Part shown: positions 2,957 to 22,569 of the stretch, piece after piece
Position numbering within the stretch: the stretch's first letter is position 1
Layout: every line of letters begins with the position of its first letter
Origin: a virus
Strand: one strand, 5' to 3'
Length of the DNA: 22,840 nt
IMG/VR virus record: IMGVR_UViG_3300033149_005032
Span: 1 to 22,840 of that record
The notes under the pieces: model-generated
Seen by the model: only the letters and a program-made list of their open reading frames with translations
Database searches by the model: none
Told to the model about the DNA's origin: nothing
Position numbers and translations under genes: made by a program

Positions 2957-3624
2957 ATCAAGCCGGGGATGGGAAGCTGATAAATGTAAGAACTCCTGTA
3001 AATTCCCGCTCCCGGATGGTAGCCTCTGGCCGCCTTGCTCAGGACAAGTCTTTCCTCTTGCCTTACCCTTCTGAATAACCTGTTCGGCTCATTCAAATAT
3101 TGTTTAATATCCCCTGCAATCTCTGCCGCACTTCTCCCGGTAGATATACCCGAAGCGAGATAAAGTTCCAATTGATCTTTTGCTCCTTTGGTCAGATTCC
3201 AGACTCTTTCGCTCAAATTCATTCCGGCTGCGGTCCGGGCAAGGAAAGTATCCAGCGCCATCAGGTTTAGTTGATTAAACGATATGGGTATGTCATATCC
3301 GCTTAATTTTATTCCGTCTGTCCAGTTACCCACTAATTTATTATTCTTTAAATTAGCCATATCCCAATGGCTTATAATCCCTTCTTGTATATTGACCCGG
3401 ATATCTCTATTAAGTTTATTCAAGATTACATCTATTTGTTTTTCTATTCCTTTGTTTATTTTGTAGAAAGAGCCCTGGGATATTTTAGTCGGGTTTCTCA
3501 ATTCAAAGATAGCGGTTTTCATTGCTAAATCCTTAGACGCTTGGTTCAATACTGCTTCGATTTTCCTATTGTGCCTGATTATGTCCAGCATATTCCTGTT
3601 TTCAAATTGCTCTTCAATCCCCAT
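2908..3624 (-). CDS. SPP1 gp7/Mu F-like head morphogenesis protein, N-terminal part (frame-broken)
   Basis: A 238-aa reading frame matching the N-terminal two thirds of the gp7-type minor head protein. It has a helical start (IEEQFENRNMLDIIRHNRKI), then the segment with LSERVWNLTKGAKDQLELYLASGI near residues 156-179, SAAEIAGDIKQYLNEPNRLFRRV, and SKAARGYHPGAGIYRSSY near residues 195-212. In intact relatives this leads into a KNA-x-R-x-x-R-T-E segment and, some 35-40 residues later, the CD-x-L-x-G-x-Y-P end. Here about 35-40 codons are missing and the reading frame changes by -1 near 2980-3000. The tail IYQLPIPGLICV... is therefore probably nonsense. The start ATG lies in the last 11 bases of the dehydrogenase-like gene. 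Confidence 0.75.
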   Translation of the reverse strand: MGIEEQFENRNMLDIIRHNRKIEAVLNQASKDLAMKTAIFELRNPTKISQGSFYKINKGIEKQIDVILNKLNRDIRVNIQEGIISHWDMANLKNNKLVGNWTDGIKLSGYDIPISFNQLNLMALDTFLARTAAGMNLSERVWNLTKGAKDQLELYLASGISTGRSAAEIAGDIKQYLNEPNRLFRRVRQEERLVLSKAARGYHPGAGIYRSSYIYQLPIPGLICVMIWLANTRRALYS

Positions 3625-4411
3625 TCAAGGTCCCTTTCTCCAATAAATTCATATTTTCTTTATCGGCCATTATCGTTACTCTGGGTATAATTCCCTTTTT
3701 CCTTGCTGCCCTGATCAGAAATTTGATATCTTTGGAAAGACATTTGCCCCCTGCTCCCCGGTAACCATCGAATAATGGATCAAGGTGCATTGCGTTAATA
3801 TATTTGTCTAATTTAAAAGCCTCAAATAATTTATAATAATCTGCCCCGTATTTTTGGCATATATCGTATAACTCATTACCGAATACTACTTTTACGGTAT
3901 ATAAGCTATTCAGAGATACCTTTAATATTTCCGCTTCTACCGGACTCATCATTATTATTTTATTTTTATTGTCTACCACCGGTTTAAATAATTCTTTAAA
4001 TATTTCGCCTGTTTCTCTTTTTCTGGCCCCTATAATTATTTTGTCAGGGCAGATTTCATTTAAAAATGCTGTCCGCTCCCGCAAGAATTCAGGCAGATAT
4101 ACAAATTCTCTCTTATATTTTTTTATAAACTTATCAGTCATCCCCGGTATAATGGTAGATCTTATAGCAATAATTCCTTTTTTGTTTTTAGAGGTTATAT
4201 AATTTACCGCCATCTTGACATCTTCAAATATCATGTCGGCTTTGGTGGGTACACAAATAAAAACAATTTCGCACAAAGTTATATCGCAACCGAGCAATTT
4301 AGCTGGATCATATCGTTGAACAAAATGCCCCATATCTTCTAACAATTTGGCAAGGCTTTCACCGATAACTCCACAACCCACTATGCCAAGATTCATTCTT
4401 TTAAGCTTCAT
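3614..4411 (-). CDS. Short UDP-glucose/GDP-mannose dehydrogenase-like protein
   Basis: A 265-aa protein with an N-terminal Rossmann motif GIVGCGVIG (9-17), FICVPT (51-56), RSTIIPG (84-90) and YLPEFLRE (105-112). The central helix EAEILKVSLNSLY lies at 159-171, and the catalytic-cysteine motif GAGGKCLSKD at 219-228 puts C224 where the UDP-sugar dehydrogenase nucleophile sits. Family members are about 400-450 aa and oxidise a nucleotide sugar C6 alcohol to a carboxylate using NAD. This one stops just after the cysteine motif, lacking the C-terminal nucleotide-sugar-binding Rossmann domain, so activity is uncertain. It sits between portal and head-protein genes. The start follows GGAGAATCTT; M6 is an alternative start. 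Confidence 0.8.
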   Translation of the reverse strand: MKLKRMNLGIVGCGVIGESLAKLLEDMGHFVQRYDPAKLLGCDITLCEIVFICVPTKADMIFEDVKMAVNYITSKNKKGIIAIRSTIIPGMTDKFIKKYKREFVYLPEFLRERTAFLNEICPDKIIIGARKRETGEIFKELFKPVVDNKNKIIMMSPVEAEILKVSLNSLYTVKVVFGNELYDICQKYGADYYKLFEAFKLDKYINAMHLDPLFDGYRGAGGKCLSKDIKFLIRAARKKGIIPRVTIMADKENMNLLEKGTLNGD

Positions 4412-13097: not shown

Positions 13098-13430
13098 TCA
13101 CCTTCCTTTTGACGGCCTACCGCCGAATTTTTCAATACCTTCTGAACGTTCTTCAAAATCATCATCTATATCTCCTTGATTATCTATTGCTTTTTCTTCA
13201 CTTATTCCTTTATGAGAATTGATAAAATAATCTATATCTTCATATCTATCCGGGTTTATAAGTGGTAATCTTTTTCTCATATCCCGCCAAACTGTAGTTA
13301 TAGAAACTTTAAATTTTAACGCGGTAATTTTTAAAGTTGTGTTATTTCTTAGCATAAATTCAGACTCATCGAATACCCTTTCAACAATACTTTTGGAAAA
13401 ATTAGATTTGATATTAACTTTAGGTTTCAT
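13098..13430 (-). CDS. SpoIIID-like transcriptional regulator
   Basis: A 110-aa protein with a helix-turn-helix at about residues 33-52 (LKITALKFKVSITTVWRDM), followed by RLPLINPDRYEDIDYFINSHK. That order of HTH, then RLP-x-INP, then a helix with a conserved HK matches the sporulation regulator SpoIIID and its relatives. The acidic linker and GGRPSKGR end are not part of SpoIIID. In a phage it could act as a middle-gene regulator, or tie phage expression to host development if the host sporulates. Family likeness is seen; the role is inference. Confidence 0.7.
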   Translation of the reverse strand: MKPKVNIKSNFSKSIVERVFDESEFMLRNNTTLKITALKFKVSITTVWRDMRKRLPLINPDRYEDIDYFINSHKGISEEKAIDNQGDIDDDFEERSEGIEKFGGRPSKGR

Positions 13431-14022: not shown

Positions 14023-14225
14023 TTTTTTCCGGGGACAGGTAAAATAGCCACAAAAACCTGCCCCCGCCACTTTAAGCACTCTTATAAAACTACAAAGAGA
14101 TATCAAATCACAATCAAAGGCACCACCTCACTTTAAATATCCCTGCTCCCCTGAAATATGGTCAAAGGGGCAGGGACCGGCAATCCGGTGAAATATGGTC
14201 AAAGGGGCAGGGACCGGCAATCCGG
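14023..14225 (+). repeat. Left long direct repeat of the cassette
   Basis: Begins TTTTTTCC, then a hairpin (arms 14030-14040 and 14056-14066, 15-base loop), then a 115-bp core (14075-14189) identical to 17516-17630, then a second copy of a 37-bp unit. It contains further palindromes (TCCCTGCTCCCC against GGGGCAGGGA; CCGGCAATCCGG). The style resembles REP/MITE-like dispersed repeats. I see no coding potential. It occupies most of the gap between the HTH gene and the saccharopine dehydrogenase gene. Confidence 0.9.
14152..14225 (+). repeat. 37-bp tandem duplication
   Basis: Two perfect, adjacent copies (14152-14188 and 14189-14225) of a unit beginning TGAAATATGG and ending GGCAATCCGG. The right repeat has one copy only, followed directly by phage sequence. 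Confidence 0.9.
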
Positions 14226-14279
14226 AGAACTCTGGAGAGAAAGCCGGACCGCCGGGAATCAATTCCTTTTAGATATTTT

Positions 14280-14297
14280 TTCCCGCAACCGCGGGAA
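14280..14297. other. 7-bp perfect inverted repeat
   Basis: TTCCCGC, AACC loop, GCGGGAA, about 40 bases past the end of the saccharopine dehydrogenase gene. It lacks a T-run on the minus strand (A-run instead), so it is a weak terminator candidate. Confidence 0.4.
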
Positions 14298-14337
14298 TTT
14301 AAAACCTAATTACATTAAATTCTTTCTATTAATATAA

Positions 14338-15666
14338 TTACGAAAGAAATTCTTCTCTTTCTTTAAGCAAGATACCTTCTTTTTCAAGCTCATCTAAACA
14401 GGAATTATAAATCTCTGGAAGAACTGGAGCTTGAACTCCAGTTGCGGTAACTTTACCTTGAAGGATAAGTTTTGCACCAATAGCAGGTGGAATTCCTGTA
14501 GTACGAGCAACGGAGGAATCGTTATCTGGGATACCGTAATTAATTAATGTAGAAGTATAGCGGACACGTTTTTGATTTTTAGGGAAAAAGGCAACATAGC
14601 GGTGTTCCATAATAACAAGGTCTTGTTCTCCTTTTTCGTAATTCAACTTTTCTAAGAAAAGATACAAAATCACATCTCTTGGACTACCTTTCTTTAATGG
14701 AATATACTCATCGGAAAGAAGACCAAGCCATTTAATCCGATGTAAAACTGCTGTGTAAGGCTCTAAATTAAGAAATTTCCTTAATGCCTCTTCAATATCG
14801 CATTCTTTGGGTGCTCCAATGAGTCGGCGTGTAAATTTCTTATATGAAAGGTTTTCTAACTCCCAATAATCTTCTTCAAAAAGTCCCATATCGAGCATTT
14901 TAGATATTGTCTCACTCCAACCAATATAACGTATTGTCCCTCGATAAACGTTTTTTGCTTCAGGTATATCATAGAGCTTGATATACGGGAAAGAGTTTGC
15001 ATTAGCATACTCCTCGAACCATCCAAGATCTCTAATGTGAATAAAATTGGGATAATGGAAAGTTTTTCCCGAAGGTAAGATAACTTCTTTACCATTTCTT
15101 AAGAATCTTGCTTCGCGCTTACCTGCCCCTACCAGACGACTAGGAGCCCAAGAAAGCTTATATCCAAATGGATTAGTATTAGCTTGGAGAGAGGGAAGAG
15201 CCCCACAACAAGACCAAAAAGACTCCACCAGTCCACCTTTATTGTGAATCATCTTAATAGTTCTCGCAGCAGACATATGATCTATTCCTGGATCTAATCC
15301 AAGTTCACATAGGATAAGCACACCTGCCTTGTGAGTCGATTCATCGAGGTTTTGCATTTCTTGAGTTATATAAGATGGATGAATCATTGAAATCTGAGAT
15401 TCGATACAAAGTTTAGCAATATAAACCATAAATTGACTTGGAAGAAGATTTATAATTATATCTGGTTTAACCTTATCAATAAGTTTTTTTGCTCCCGAGG
15501 TAGCATCATCTACTATTATTGTTCCCCTAGGGTGCCCATTTACTACACGGTTAACATTTTGCGAATTTTTATCTACTACAGTAACATTATAATCGGGATA
15601 TTTTAAAAGATATTGTACGCAGGGACGTGCTATCCGACCTGCTCCAAAAATAAGAATTTTTTTCAT
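14338..15666 (-). CDS. Saccharopine dehydrogenase-family protein (Lys9-like)
   Basis: A 442-aa protein with an N-terminal NAD(P)-binding motif IFGAGRIARP (6-15), then VVDK near 35-38 and IINLLPSQF near 75-83. The family segment CELGLDPGIDHMSA follows, with SWAPSRLVGAG and ARFLRNGKE in the substrate domain, and ARTTGIPPAIGA near the end. Full length for the family. Such enzymes interconvert saccharopine with glutamate and aminoadipate semialdehyde; close relatives act on carboxynorspermidine or other amino-acid adducts, so the exact reaction is open. No lysine-ketoglutarate reductase is visible. It follows the NhaC gene with a good AAAGGAGT site; both lie between the long repeats, making a cellular origin likely. 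Confidence 0.85.
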   Translation of the reverse strand: MKKILIFGAGRIARPCVQYLLKYPDYNVTVVDKNSQNVNRVVNGHPRGTIIVDDATSGAKKLIDKVKPDIIINLLPSQFMVYIAKLCIESQISMIHPSYITQEMQNLDESTHKAGVLILCELGLDPGIDHMSAARTIKMIHNKGGLVESFWSCCGALPSLQANTNPFGYKLSWAPSRLVGAGKREARFLRNGKEVILPSGKTFHYPNFIHIRDLGWFEEYANANSFPYIKLYDIPEAKNVYRGTIRYIGWSETISKMLDMGLFEEDYWELENLSYKKFTRRLIGAPKECDIEEALRKFLNLEPYTAVLHRIKWLGLLSDEYIPLKKGSPRDVILYLFLEKLNYEKGEQDLVIMEHRYVAFFPKNQKRVRYTSTLINYGIPDNDSSVARTTGIPPAIGAKLILQGKVTATGVQAPVLPEIYNSCLDELEKEGILLKEREEFLS

Positions 15667-15698
15667 AATAATTTAACTCCTTTCTATTCATTTTATTG

Positions 15699-15729
15699 GT
15701 GAGGAGAGGAATATCTTTCCTCTCCTCAC
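15699..15729. promoter_or_regulatory. 13-bp perfect hairpin between NhaC and dehydrogenase genes
   Basis: Arms GTGAGGAGAGGAA and TTCCTCTCCTCAC with a 5-base loop, perfectly paired. There is no T-run on the minus strand, so it is more likely an mRNA processing, stability or attenuation element than a terminator. It sits 33 bases before the dehydrogenase start. Confidence 0.6.
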
Positions 15730-15744
15730 TTCTATTTAACTAAT

Positions 15745-17301
15745 TTATATATTATTTTTTTTATCTTTTAAAAGATCTATTGCAATAGTATTCTTTATCT
15801 TACTCCCCCAAATTTTTCCAAAAACAACAACAAAGAGAAGTAGTAAACTTATAGCAAAAAATAATACTATTGGTGAAGCCATAAATCCTGCCACTATATA
15901 AGCAATAACACTCGCTAATGCTACAGTCATTGCATAAGGTAATTGTGTCTTAACATGATCAATATGGTCACAAGCTGCTCCCATAGATGAAAGAAGTGTA
16001 GTATCAGAAATAGGTGAGCAATGATCCCCAAAAAGCCCCCCACTAAGAACTGCACCAATAGATACATACATAGGTGCTCCGAGTGCGTTAGCCATTGGAA
16101 TGACAAGAGGCATAAGGATTGCAAATGTTCCCCAGGAACTACCAGTAGCAAAACTGATTCCTGCTCCTGTAATAAACATCATCATGGGAACCATCCATCC
16201 CGGAATATTGCCCTGTGCTAGAGCAATAATGTAGTTGGCTGTGCCAAGTGCTTTACAGATAGATCCGAGAGACCACGCCAAAACAAGAATCATGAGAATA
16301 AATACAATTTCTTTGGTACCTTCAAAATACATATCAAATGCTTCACTGAAGTTTTTAACTTTATATTTAATCATGAGAAATATGCAAGATACAGCACCAA
16401 GAAAATAGCCTGTACACAAAGACATCCGTAAGACAGATCCAGATACTATTTTGGCAGGGAATCCGTTAGAAATAAGCAGACCAAAAAAACAAACAAGAAG
16501 AACAATCATGGGGATAACCATCATCGGAGCCCGAGGCTGGACCCCTTCCTCAACTTTGATAGAAACAGCAGGACGAGCAGGTTTTGCATCAGGCCATAGA
16601 GGTTGTCCTGTATCTATTGTTCTTTTTTCTGCTTTGTACATTTCACTAAATTCGAAACCTAGAAATGCTACAAGAGGAATCATTACCAAAGCACCAATAG
16701 CATAAAATTGGAATGGAATAACTTTCATAAAGACAGTCCATTCAGATTCAACAATATTAAGAGCAACATATTCTTTGTGGATAAGTCCCATAATGTAAAT
16801 ACCCCATCCAATGAAAGGAATAAGAATGCAAACAGGTGAAGCAGTACTATCCAAAAGCCAGGCAAGTTTTTCTCTGCTAATTCGAAGTTTATCAGTAATA
16901 GGTTGAAATGCAGGACCAAGAATTAGTGGATTCCCAGAGTCTGAGAAGAATATAACCAGGCCACCTATCCAAACCGCTAATTGAGCTCTAACCCTGTTAT
17001 TGATCCAGATTATAATTTTTTCAGCAAAAGCCGTGGCCCCTCCGGAATGGGTAATTACTCCAACAAAACCGCCAATGAAGATCATCATAACCAATAAGCT
17101 AGAGTTATAACTATCCGAAGCCTGTACAAAAATGTAATCCTTAATCAAAACAGTTAATCCGGTCAAAAGATTCCAGCGAGATAAAATTACTGTGCCTAGA
17201 AAAGTTCCCAGAAAAAGCGCCATTAAAACATTGCGGTATTTAATCGCTAAGACTACTGCAATAATCGGTGGTAAAATTGATAAAAAACCATAATTTTCCA
17301 T
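15745..17301 (-). CDS. NhaC-family Na+/H+ antiporter-like transporter
   Basis: A 518-aa polytopic inner-membrane protein, the usual length of the NhaC family. It starts MENYGFLSILPPIIAVVLAI and has about 11-12 hydrophobic segments. Conserved features include GGFVGVITHSGG (about 77-88), FFSDSGNPLILGPAF (about 118-132), SFATGSSWGTFAILMPL (about 383-399) and GGLFGDHCSPISDTTLLSS (about 418-436). The family includes Na+/H+ exchangers, but also malate/lactate and amino-acid-linked antiporters. With an amino-acid dehydrogenase downstream, a lysine- or amino-acid-linked substrate is possible (inference). The ribosome site is AAAAAGGAGA. It is the first gene of the cassette, and its 170-base leader presumably holds its promoter. 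Confidence 0.9.
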   Translation of the reverse strand: MENYGFLSILPPIIAVVLAIKYRNVLMALFLGTFLGTVILSRWNLLTGLTVLIKDYIFVQASDSYNSSLLVMMIFIGGFVGVITHSGGATAFAEKIIIWINNRVRAQLAVWIGGLVIFFSDSGNPLILGPAFQPITDKLRISREKLAWLLDSTASPVCILIPFIGWGIYIMGLIHKEYVALNIVESEWTVFMKVIPFQFYAIGALVMIPLVAFLGFEFSEMYKAEKRTIDTGQPLWPDAKPARPAVSIKVEEGVQPRAPMMVIPMIVLLVCFFGLLISNGFPAKIVSGSVLRMSLCTGYFLGAVSCIFLMIKYKVKNFSEAFDMYFEGTKEIVFILMILVLAWSLGSICKALGTANYIIALAQGNIPGWMVPMMMFITGAGISFATGSSWGTFAILMPLVIPMANALGAPMYVSIGAVLSGGLFGDHCSPISDTTLLSSMGAACDHIDHVKTQLPYAMTVALASVIAYIVAGFMASPIVLFFAISLLLLFVVVFGKIWGSKIKNTIAIDLLKDKKNNI

Positions 17302-17465
17302 TTTTTAATATCTCCTTTTTGATTTATTTTATTTTAAGATAACTTATTCTTTTTTCCTAAGACCTAAAATTCTCCCAGTATTAATTTTTTTTCTCTTCCC
17401 ACCTCCTTATTTTTTAGGGGGACATCATATAGCATTTTCCCCAGTTAATCCAGCAATTTACACCC
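17302..17465 (-). promoter_or_regulatory. Leader of the cassette operon
   Basis: 164 bases between the right repeat and the NhaC gene. On the minus strand, TTGCTG (17456-17451) and TATATG (17431-17426) are 19 bases apart with TGC just before the second box. They are a poor to fair sigma-A-type promoter. An AAGGAGG with no good start codon follows. I see no recognised riboswitch. Confidence 0.25.
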
Positions 17466-17630
17466 TTTTTTCCGGGGGCAGGTTTTGTGGCTATTTACCT
17501 GTCCCCGCCTTTTTTAGCACTCTTATAAAACTACAAAGAGATATCAAATCACAATCAAAGGCACCACCTCACTTTAAATATCCCTGCTCCCCTGAAATAT
17601 GGTCAAAGGGGCAGGGACCGGCAATCCGGT
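17466..17630 (+). repeat. Right long direct repeat of the cassette
   Basis: Same orientation as 14023-14189 and identical over 17516-17630 (115 bp). The leading hairpin (arms 17473-17483 and 17497-17507) is, however, the reverse complement of the left one, apart from two loop bases. It overlaps the last 28 bases of the 133-aa gene, whose stop codon lies in the repeat. Confidence 0.9.
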
Positions 17631-18004
17631 TTGTATAATTCGCAAATAGCTTTTAATTGGGGTTTACCATAGAATTCATAATTTTCTAAATTATTCCACT
17701 TCTTTAAGAATTCATCCTGGCCATCTAGCCATAGCCAAGCTCTCATATGCATAAGTGATCTGCCCGCACTTATCCCCCGGCAATCGTTAGCCTTTTCCCA
17801 GGCAAAATCCATATACTCTTTAATCTTTTCTGCGGGTTCTTTTTCTACGCCTTCTTCCCAATCCTCTTTTGTCATACCTTCTTTCGCGTAGGGTTTTGCA
17901 TGTTCAAAATCTAAATAATATAAATATTCCAATGATTCCCACCCGCCTGTATCATTATCTTTTCTTTCTTCGAATTTCTTTAATATTTCTTCTTGTGTTC
18001 TCAC
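17603..18004 (-). CDS. Phage protein of unknown function, C-terminus truncated by repeat
   Basis: A 133-aa protein with GTG start (GGGGGTG ribosome site). HAKPYAKEGMTKEDWEEG, YMDFAWEKANDCRGISAGRSLMHMRAWLWL (about 64-93) and YGKPQLKAICELY are a pattern I recognise from phage hypothetical proteins of about 140-150 aa. Relatives continue after ICELY with an aromatic/acidic tail. Here the last nine residues, from KP to the stop, are encoded by the right long repeat. The end is therefore replaced, not natural. Function unknown; the SAGRS-x-x-HM-x-AWLWL helix is the conserved core. Confidence 0.65.
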   Translation of the reverse strand: MRTQEEILKKFEERKDNDTGGWESLEYLYYLDFEHAKPYAKEGMTKEDWEEGVEKEPAEKIKEYMDFAWEKANDCRGISAGRSLMHMRAWLWLDGQDEFLKKWNNLENYEFYGKPQLKAICELYKPDCRSLPL

Positions 18005-18071: not shown

Positions 18072-19604
18072 TTAAAATAAGTTAGGCTGGACCTTCTTAA
18101 TCCTCTTTTTAGCCATATCAATATATTCCTGTTTTATCTCAATACCGATAAATCTTTTTCTTTGTTTCAAAGCCACTAATGCAGTAGTCCCGGCCCCCAT
18201 GAATGGATCTAAAACTATACCGGATTCAAAACCGGCATTACAGCCACAATCAGAATATCCTTTAGATTTATATTCTGAATTTGCTTTAACTTTAAATTTT
18301 GTTTTTGTTTCTTGCCCGGCATGATGTTCTTCTAAATTTCCCTTGCCGAGATATTCTTTGTATTCTTCTGTAGGCTCTAATATTTTTACCCTTGCCATAC
18401 CGCATTTTTTACAGACAAATTCCGGGCAGCCCGCTTTAATCGGTATCTCAATTAACCCTTCCGGATATACTGCAAAATGGGCTTCCGGGTAAGGTGAAGT
18501 TGGAATGGTCCAGACTGCTCTCATGTTTCGGCCTTGCTTGTTTGGCCTCATATTCCTATCTCGGTAGGTACTCTGTCCTGTTCCTTTATCCCAATCGCTT
18601 TTATTTACTGCTTTTAATTTATTCCCACCCCATCGATCTAATGGTCCCTTGTATTCCTCAAATTGCTGCTCAAACCAATAATCGTGACCGGTCCAGAGGG
18701 ATACTTTTTTATATCCTTCTTTTGCATAGTTTGATTTTTTTCTTAAAGGAAGTTTAAATGTTTCATCTCTACTTGGTCTTTGCCAGCTGCTTTCTTTTTT
18801 CTGCCACTCCCAATCTCTGCCTTCTATTCCCTTAATACCTAAAGGCTTTTTATTTAAACATTCTAAAGTTTTCTCATTGGTCCAGAATATAGCTTTATTA
18901 TTTTTGGTAAAGAAAAACAGATATTCAAAATCTATAGTGAACCTGTCGTTTGCACTTGAGGGCATGCAATTCGGTTTTTCCCAGATAATTGTATTTCTCT
19001 TGATCCAGCCCCGGTTAATCATTTCTATTGAAAATCTATAGGGAATATCTAATAGGCTTTTTTCATAGCCTCTAGTAGTCTTTTGATTCCCCTGGGAAGC
19101 TCCCATCTCCAAAGTCTTATAACCTAAATTTCTTGTATGTTCTTTGTGTCCTGAAGCATTCCCACTACCGCCATAGGAATCCCCGATATTTACGAAACAA
19201 ACCCCATCTTTCCTTAATACTCTTTTAACTTCATCAAAGATATCGCAAAGATGTTTTATATATAATTCAAAGGTTGGCTCGAGGCCCAGACTCCCGCGCC
19301 AGGCTCCACATTTAGAGCAAAACCCCGCTTTTGTACTACCAAAGCCGTGCAGATTTTCTCTATATTTTGGATTGCCTAGCGTGCCACCATCTAAATTTTG
19401 CCTATTCTTGTGTAATAATTTTGAATCATATTCATTAAATTCGTGATTACAATTCTTATCCCCATCCCATATAACCGGTTCAATGCCATAATCCCGAAGT
19501 CCCCAGTATGGAGGAGAACATACACAGCAATTAACTGATTCTGACGGTAATTTTGGAAGTATCTCTAGATCATTGCCACATAATATTTTATTTATGTAAT
19601 CCAT
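18072..19604 (-). CDS. DNA N4-cytosine/N6-adenine methyltransferase, beta-class order
   Basis: A 510-aa protein. The catalytic motif SPPYWGLRDYG is near the N-terminus (30-40), and the SAM-binding motif DPFMGAGTTALVAL near the C-terminus (466-479) with FIGIEIKQEY. This gives the catalytic-first (beta) order. SPPY, rather than DPPY, favours N4-cytosine but does not prove it. Two Cys pairs are visible, one at FCSKCG near residue 97 and one at FVCKKCG near 390-396, so a zinc finger is plausible inside the long central insert that probably reads the target. No restriction gene is adjacent, as for solitary phage methylases that protect phage DNA. Ribosome site GAGG; ends 67 bases before the 133-aa gene. 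Confidence 0.9.
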   Translation of the reverse strand: MDYINKILCGNDLEILPKLPSESVNCCVCSPPYWGLRDYGIEPVIWDGDKNCNHEFNEYDSKLLHKNRQNLDGGTLGNPKYRENLHGFGSTKAGFCSKCGAWRGSLGLEPTFELYIKHLCDIFDEVKRVLRKDGVCFVNIGDSYGGSGNASGHKEHTRNLGYKTLEMGASQGNQKTTRGYEKSLLDIPYRFSIEMINRGWIKRNTIIWEKPNCMPSSANDRFTIDFEYLFFFTKNNKAIFWTNEKTLECLNKKPLGIKGIEGRDWEWQKKESSWQRPSRDETFKLPLRKKSNYAKEGYKKVSLWTGHDYWFEQQFEEYKGPLDRWGGNKLKAVNKSDWDKGTGQSTYRDRNMRPNKQGRNMRAVWTIPTSPYPEAHFAVYPEGLIEIPIKAGCPEFVCKKCGMARVKILEPTEEYKEYLGKGNLEEHHAGQETKTKFKVKANSEYKSKGYSDCGCNAGFESGIVLDPFMGAGTTALVALKQRKRFIGIEIKQEYIDMAKKRIKKVQPNLF

Positions 19605-21402: not shown

Positions 21403-21942
21403 TTATTCCCTTTCTACCTTATTATTTTCATAATCATAAACCTGGTAAGATATTACCGGGTATTGTGTAAGTTCATAATCTCGAACTATAGATTTAAAAT
21501 CATCCGCATATAAGGGGTTATAAAGATAATTATTAGAATAAGTATATTTACCACCCTCAACATATATCCCCATAACGTGGGGTAATATCAAGGGCAAACC
21601 GTAAAACCCGGTATATTTGCACCACATCATAATTTTATAGACTTTGTATCCATGCTGATGTGCTATCCATGTAGCAAAATTCGCAAAATCATCGCAATCA
21701 CCGGTATCATTCCATCCTTCAAGATTAGCTAGATACATTTGATAGGGGCTGTATGTATGAATACTGATATTCCATTCAAAACCTTCCATATATTTACATA
21801 TCTTTTCAGGTGTATTTAAGCTATTAATAAGTTCTACAAATTCTAGATCATCAGGGCAAACCCATGCATTAAGATTAAAACCATTACAACCGGTTAAAAA
21901 AATTATTGATAAGATACTGATAATTAAAAATGCTTTTTTCAT
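21403..21942 (-). CDS. Lipoprotein with transglutaminase-like fold
   Basis: A 179-aa protein with a lipoprotein signal (MKKAFLIISILSIIFLTGC, lipobox LTGC at 16-19). The mature part has a transglutaminase/papain-like triad layout: C83 in WNDTGDCDDFANFATWIAH, H122 in LILPHVMGIYVE and N137/N138 in YTYSNNYL. Such bacterial transglutaminase-like proteases act on proteins or peptidoglycan-linked substrates at the cell surface; the substrate here is unknown. Strong GAGGAGGT ribosome site. Together with the neighbouring lipoprotein and the 3D protein it forms a surface module expressed first in this direction. Confidence 0.75.
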   Translation of the reverse strand: MKKAFLIISILSIIFLTGCNGFNLNAWVCPDDLEFVELINSLNTPEKICKYMEGFEWNISIHTYSPYQMYLANLEGWNDTGDCDDFANFATWIAHQHGYKVYKIMMWCKYTGFYGLPLILPHVMGIYVEGGKYTYSNNYLYNPLYADDFKSIVRDYELTQYPVISYQVYDYENNKVERE

Positions 21943-21972
21943 AATAATTTACCTCCTCTCGGTCTTTATTTA

Positions 21973-22000
21973 GAGGGGCTTGTCAGACCTCAAGCCCCTT
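21973..22000. terminator. Stem-loop between the two lipoprotein genes
   Basis: GGGGCTTG and CAAGCCCC with a loop of about eight bases, between the stop at 22018 and the ribosome site of the next gene. T-run TTTT on the plus side only. On the minus strand it may reduce transcription past the first lipoprotein gene or stabilise the mRNA end. Confidence 0.5.
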
Positions 22001-22017
22001 TTCCTCTTAATGGTTAT

Positions 22018-22569
22018 TTAACGTGGATAAGCGGTATAATCGGTATATTGTACAAACCACTTACCTTCTTCTACACATTCAACAGCCTTCGGATAATATT
22101 GATCTAGAATTGCTAGATCCTCCTCACTTTCAGCATAAGCATACTTAAATTGAGTGTAATCCCCGACCATTGTGCCACTGGTTCCATCTTCATAAACGAT
22201 TATCTCTACCTGTCCTACAAAAGTATTTTCTGTCTCTAATTCGAATAGAGTATATGCAGCATTACCTGATAATTTTCCTTCTTCATCGATGAACACGATC
22301 CCAGAATATTCCCTATCTGGGTCATTAAAGTATTCTTTTATATCAGCAAAACACCATCCACCATCATCCTGAATCAATGTTGCAGGGCCAAGAGGATCGT
22401 TAATCCAACTATTATAGAGTGAACTGTCAGCATTATATCTTTCAGCATCTTCAAACCAGGTAATAGTAATTAGTTTTTCATCAGGAAACAACCAATCAAA
22501 AAAATCACAACCGGTAAGAAGTAAACCGGCAACTAACATAACCACCACCAATACAGTTAGCTTTTTCAT
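22018..22569 (-). CDS. Lipoprotein of unknown function
   Basis: A 183-aa protein with a lipoprotein signal peptide (hydrophobic residues 4-18, lipobox LTGC at 18-21). The mature domain is acidic and beta-rich (ITWFEDAERYN, AYTLFELETENTFVGQVEIIVYEDG) with no motif I recognise. It would be anchored outside the cytoplasmic membrane. Strong GAGGAGGTG ribosome site. It is the most upstream gene in the window; a lysogeny-linked surface or exclusion role is conceivable, but nothing in the sequence proves it. Confidence 0.7.
   Translation of the reverse strand: MKKLTVLVVVMLVAGLLLTGCDFFDWLFPDEKLITITWFEDAERYNADSSLYNSWINDPLGPATLIQDDGGWCFADIKEYFNDPDREYSGIVFIDEEGKLSGNAAYTLFELETENTFVGQVEIIVYEDGTSGTMVGDYTQFKYAYAESEEDLAILDQYYPKAVECVEEGKWFVQYTDYTAYPR

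Follow-up and report, generated by a model that had tools for sequence, protein, structure and literature searches.

That phages carry metabolic cargo is well established. The auxiliary metabolic genes and morons of tailed phages are host-derived metabolic genes that occupy a variable slot between phage modules on the phage strand, features shared by the locus described here. Unlike them, this locus carries a complete two-gene operon with an intergenic hairpin, flanked by a duplicated native phage element. In the library of papers searched, none deals with saccharopine dehydrogenase as viral cargo, nor with this enzyme together with NhaC. On the bacterial side, the locus resembles an operon of Synergistota in gene order, close spacing and the hairpin-like intergenic sequence present in several Synergistota loci. 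The operon differs by an open reading frame ahead of the pair in L025, L026, L029, and L031, which we take, from reading the sequence by eye, to encode a GntR-type regulator; the locus described here lacks this frame. By the terminase large subunit, the only protein compared, the nearest named phages are Marinitoga camini viruses 1 and 2 (57%).

Phage Context of the Gene Pair

The window, by which we mean the whole stretch of DNA analysed, is a 22.8-kb virus record with nearly all of its genes on the minus strand. Its phage genes include those for terminase, portal, head proteins, DNA methyltransferases, and a DnaD-like helicase loader. The gene pair, hereafter the cassette, lies between two direct repeats, R_B on the left and R_A on the right, and is flanked by the following phage genes.

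13434-13988, minus strand: DnaD-like helicase loader, the first phage gene past R_B (replication module); phrog_2514, 7.5e-22
17603-18004, minus strand: phage gene matching phrog_5706, its 3' end replaced by R_A sequence from 17630 downwards
18072-19604, minus strand: phage DNA methyltransferase on the far side of the cargo slot; PF01555, 2.8e-35; phrog_67

The earlier note had described phage genes running in the same direction on both sides of the cassette, and this arrangement holds for the terminase, portal, methyltransferase, and DnaD-like genes. The DnaD-like gene matches L005 at 81% and L006 at 80%. The gene at 17603-18004 aligns with positions 1-127 of the 149 in phrog_5706, a truncation of about 22 positions, and its homologue in L023 (157 aa) runs on past the break point.

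Several other genes were observed along the way. A glycosyltransferase and a UDP-glucose/GDP-mannose dehydrogenase-like gene, the latter matched over the second half of the NAD-binding domain only, lie among the head and packaging genes (781-1722 and 3614-4411). A small SpoIIID-like HTH protein is encoded at 13098-13430 (PF12116, phrog_11726). The DNA methyltransferase of L109 (L109:1-1944, 647 aa) contains an internal LAGLIDADG-like stretch (PF14528) with intein-like edges (CVDSETEIL...FITGN/T), which the window methyltransferase lacks.

Genes Between the Repeats

Only two real genes were found between the repeats, and no transposase is among them.

14338-15666, minus strand: predicted saccharopine dehydrogenase of the saccharopine reductase type; intact, 442 aa; PF16653 and PF03435
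15698-15730, no strand assigned: inverted repeat between the transporter and dehydrogenase genes; hairpin-like sequences stand at the same place in L025, L026, and L031
15745-17301, minus strand: predicted Na+/H+ antiporter family transporter, 518 aa, intact; PF03553, 1.4e-56

In profile searches, the product of 14338-15666 matched PF16653 (1.1e-67; 229.4 bits, gathering cut-off 31) and the NADP-binding domain PF03435 (9e-15; 55.6 bits, gathering cut-off 25.1). With both domains above their gathering scores, the predicted protein is a member of the saccharopine dehydrogenase family, and it aligned over its whole length with the solved saccharopine reductase 1e5l (phmmer, 9.6e-69). The transporter scored 192 bits against PF03553 (cut-off 23). 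It fell below the NhaC equivalog TIGR00931 (48.7 bits vs a curated cut-off of 370) and also below the cut-offs of the ArcD and Tet(35) models. The gene pair had been presented as an NhaC antiporter with a saccharopine dehydrogenase; both genes are full-length and the dehydrogenase domains are confirmed, but the transporter stays far under the score set for NhaC proper. Judged by these profile scores, the label 'NhaC' is loose, and the protein can be placed only in the broader PF03553 family. Neither a promoter nor a terminator signal exceeded shuffled sequence.

The two families might point to sodium-coupled exchange or transport and to lysine/glutamate (saccharopine) metabolism during infection as the use of the cassette to the phage, which is the least certain part of our interpretation.

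Bacterial Relatives and Composition of the Cassette

We detected the same pair, in the same order and closely spaced, in seven bacterial loci (L024, L025, L026, L027, L029, L030, and L031), six of Synergistota type and one in an Acidobacteriota MAG. Identity reached 73-75% for the transporter (Synergistota and Acidobacteriota MAGs) and 58-60% for the saccharopine dehydrogenase (Synergistota). The predicted transporter-saccharopine dehydrogenase pair is thus a known bacterial operon. Since the best identities are 75% and 60%, the donor would be a relative of the compared genomes and not one of them.

The composition of the two genes also sets them apart. AGA and AGG account for a share of 0.36-0.40 of the arginine codons in the cassette genes vs mostly 0.6-0.93 in the phage genes, and purine content is 0.46-0.51 vs 0.55-0.64 in most phage genes. 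Codon usage and purine content therefore separate the cassette genes from the phage genes and fit a recent arrival. Purine content is no proof by itself, as it is also low in two lipoprotein-like genes near the right end (21403-22569). These two small genes have T-rich third positions and are nearer to the cassette in composition than other phage genes are.

Neither cassette gene has a relative in the viral contigs searched or in PHROGs. The view that the genes are cellular and have no phage counterpart agrees with the bacterial operon relatives, the foreign codon usage, and this negative result.

A Native Phage Element Duplicated Around the Cassette

The repeats are 97% identical over 134 nt (14056-14189 and 17497-17630) according to a repeat search. 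Their longest exact match is 115 bp (14075-14189 = 17516-17630), in the same orientation, as had been noted before, and is far beyond chance. Close relatives were retrieved from viral contigs, with the flanking genes and the terminase gene as queries. Compared with them, the repeats prove to be copies of an intergenic element (E) that is conserved in this phage group and native to it, not host repeats. The element consists of two modules, X and Y, with three hairpins (H1, H2, and H3), and is represented in the window as follows.

14023-14189, minus strand: R_B, the copy of E adjoining the replication genes; H2 at about 14141-14175, the conserved motif, and H3 at 14030-14066
14190-14277, minus strand: module X of the native element, with H1 at about 14215-14254 and part of H2; abuts the cassette end
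14190-14225, minus strand: third, tandem partial copy of a 37-nt unit U, missing from L121, L128, and L110
17466-17630, minus strand: R_A, a partial second copy of E with H3 (17473-17507) inverted; 100% identical to R_B over 115 bp

At least six relatives carry a single copy of the element at the same locus, ahead of the replication genes (L006, L109/L159, L110, L121, L128, and L156/L157, of which L156 and L157 are the same sequence from two samples), with differing neighbouring genes. Module X is 93% identical to L005/L110 and 87-88% identical to L121 and L128, and stands at the same place in L156/L157 and L163. Module Y comprises a nearly invariant 29-nt stretch and hairpin H3. In L110 two small genes separate X from Y; L006 and L109 contain only Y, and L163 contains only X. 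The stem of H2 is retained through changes in both of its strands, the corresponding positions reading C-G, T-A, and A-T in L110, L156, and L163, and the L121 copy folds at z = -3.0 vs shuffles. Comparison with Rfam gave no match above chance. A DNA-level search left the element unmatched in GenBank phages and in GenBank plasmids.

Within the nearly invariant Y stretch (window 14023-14140, minus strand), we observed a possible mini-ORF, TTG ATT GTG GTT TAA, behind a GGAGG-like site. The window version reads TTG ATT GTG ATT TGA, and the stop falls at the same codon in the aligned relatives.

In the window, the left-hand copy of the element is complete, while the right-hand copy is partial, has one hairpin inverted, and truncates a phage gene. 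Each copy ends in a 35-nt hairpin (14030-14066 and 17473-17507), and the two hairpins are mutual reverse complements. The cores are identical over 115 bp vs about 82% to their nearest relatives, which marks R_A and R_B as having been copied recently from a single sequence. An origin of the R_A end in another phage lineage was considered and dropped, as the hairpin inversion explains the GGGGACAGG arm. The few substitutions near the R_A hairpin would fit the same inversion event.

The hairpin-rich, nearly inverted ends (GGGGACAGG...CCTGYCCCC) resemble REP or MITE sequences, and one might regard the repeats as host REP/MITE or insertion-sequence ends and the cassette as a composite mobile element inserted into the phage by transposition. 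We consider this very improbable: the phage relatives carry the element as a native sequence, once and at one locus, which largely refutes a host REP/MITE repeat, and a composite transposon or IS element was rejected because no transposase gene lies in, at, or between the repeats. A Y1 transposase (Y1_Tnp) was found neither in the window nor in eight relatives, and the bacterial genomes searched (below) gave no copy of the repeats. An integron gene cassette was likewise rejected, since the tyrosine recombinase family PF00589 is absent from the window and the element is a phage intergenic sequence that keeps its position.

A further alternative takes the repeats for prophage attL and attR and the cassette for host DNA between two integrated prophages. 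Some relatives are temperate, with a tyrosine integrase in the L156 and L157 records; however, in the L157 record some 10 kb or more separate the integrase from the element. No integrase occurs in the window or in the L006, L110, L121, L128, and L163 records, some of which are short, and the conserved position of the element is between the replication genes and the cargo genes, with no integrase beside it. This arrangement leaves the attachment-site explanation with very little probability.

The Variable Slot in Related Phages

The element forms the right edge of a slot between the DNA-methyltransferase genes and the DnaD-like replication gene; in the relatives, this slot holds small phage genes. 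Upstream of X, L110 has an 83-aa gene, and L121, L128, and L156 have a 68-aa gene; an HNH-like gene, its family read by eye, precedes Y in L109. In the window, the saccharopine dehydrogenase gene abuts the left edge of X, with the junction at 14277, as other cargo genes do in the relatives. The window lacks two genes found after Y in L110, L121, and L109, one beginning MKFKLGQ and the other presumably HTH-like, as read by eye. The transporter-dehydrogenase pair was not present in any phage relative examined, and a second genome with the cassette was not found. The comparison of phages with and without the cassette that the earlier note proposed thus yielded only the second class, relatives carrying other small genes in its place.

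Captured Cargo or Assembly Join

Both the cellular origin of the genes and their phage flanks are observed, and a 115-bp identical repeat is of the kind that can mislead a short-read assembler. The window could accordingly be a join of two genomes within the core, a phage with the order methyltransferase-E-DnaD and a second molecule, E-cassette-X, from a related phage, a prophage, or a host. A repeated graph node would yield this very pattern, a 115-bp stretch of 100% identity that breaks off on either side, no other viral contig carrying the cassette was found, and the cassette has host-like codon usage. Against this, the cassette ends are tied to the phage element outside the core, by X at 14190-14277 and by the inverted H3 at 17473-17507. 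This would make the second molecule phage-like as well, and a simple host/phage chimera is unlikely, because the host would have to carry X and the inverted-hairpin sequence as well. Overall, we judge an assembly join to be rather unlikely. In its strain-level form, the join might lie inside the core and link two phage genomes that are closely related; a host chromosome or a prophage might also contain X and E.

Neither the element nor its repeats were found in 20 bacterial genomes and 188 Synergistota genomes, none of them established as the host. The same 188 genomes contain no close terminase, and Synergistota was rejected as the phage host; 16 further genomes also gave no close terminase. 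Atribacterota would be a guess at the host.

Two copies of a native element, a variable slot, the operon relatives, the foreign codon usage, and the truncated gene make cargo capture the best reading. The bacterial operon is probably true, recently captured cargo of a tailed phage, acquired by recombination at the phage element. Among the three origins offered earlier (metabolic cargo, repeat-mediated recombination, or an assembler's join of host and phage DNA), cargo acquired by recombination is the best supported, while the plain host/phage join fares poorly given ends that lie in the phage element outside the core. We infer that the cassette and its outer flanks form one molecule and that recombination, not transposition, was responsible.

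In the proposed sequence of events, recombination at the element would bring in the transporter-dehydrogenase operon, either through integration of DNA carrying E-cassette-X or with duplication of E during capture. A second, partial element copy (R_A) would be left upstream of the cassette, the event would truncate the phage gene at 17603-18004, and the two small genes that follow the element in relatives would be absent from the window afterwards. The hairpin inversion and the nearby substitutions may be the trace expected from template switching at a hairpin.

A more specific proposal is that the X-Y element is a dedicated exchange site in this phage group, whose hairpins, folded in single strands, would act as a recombination or template-switch hotspot that swaps whole operons into the slot next to the replication genes; the partial copy with its inverted hairpin would then be the scar. 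We regard this specialised role as improbable.

Significance of the Locus

An intact operon in a phage, a duplicated native element beside it, and a conserved structured element without an Rfam match are the new features of this locus. If the linkage is true, it would document the transfer of a whole bacterial transporter-dehydrogenase operon, intact, to a phage, with a landing site beside a conserved structured element. As the element also borders other cargo in the relatives, the locus would then provide a concrete and testable model for the uptake of metabolic genes by phages that infect uncultured bacteria.
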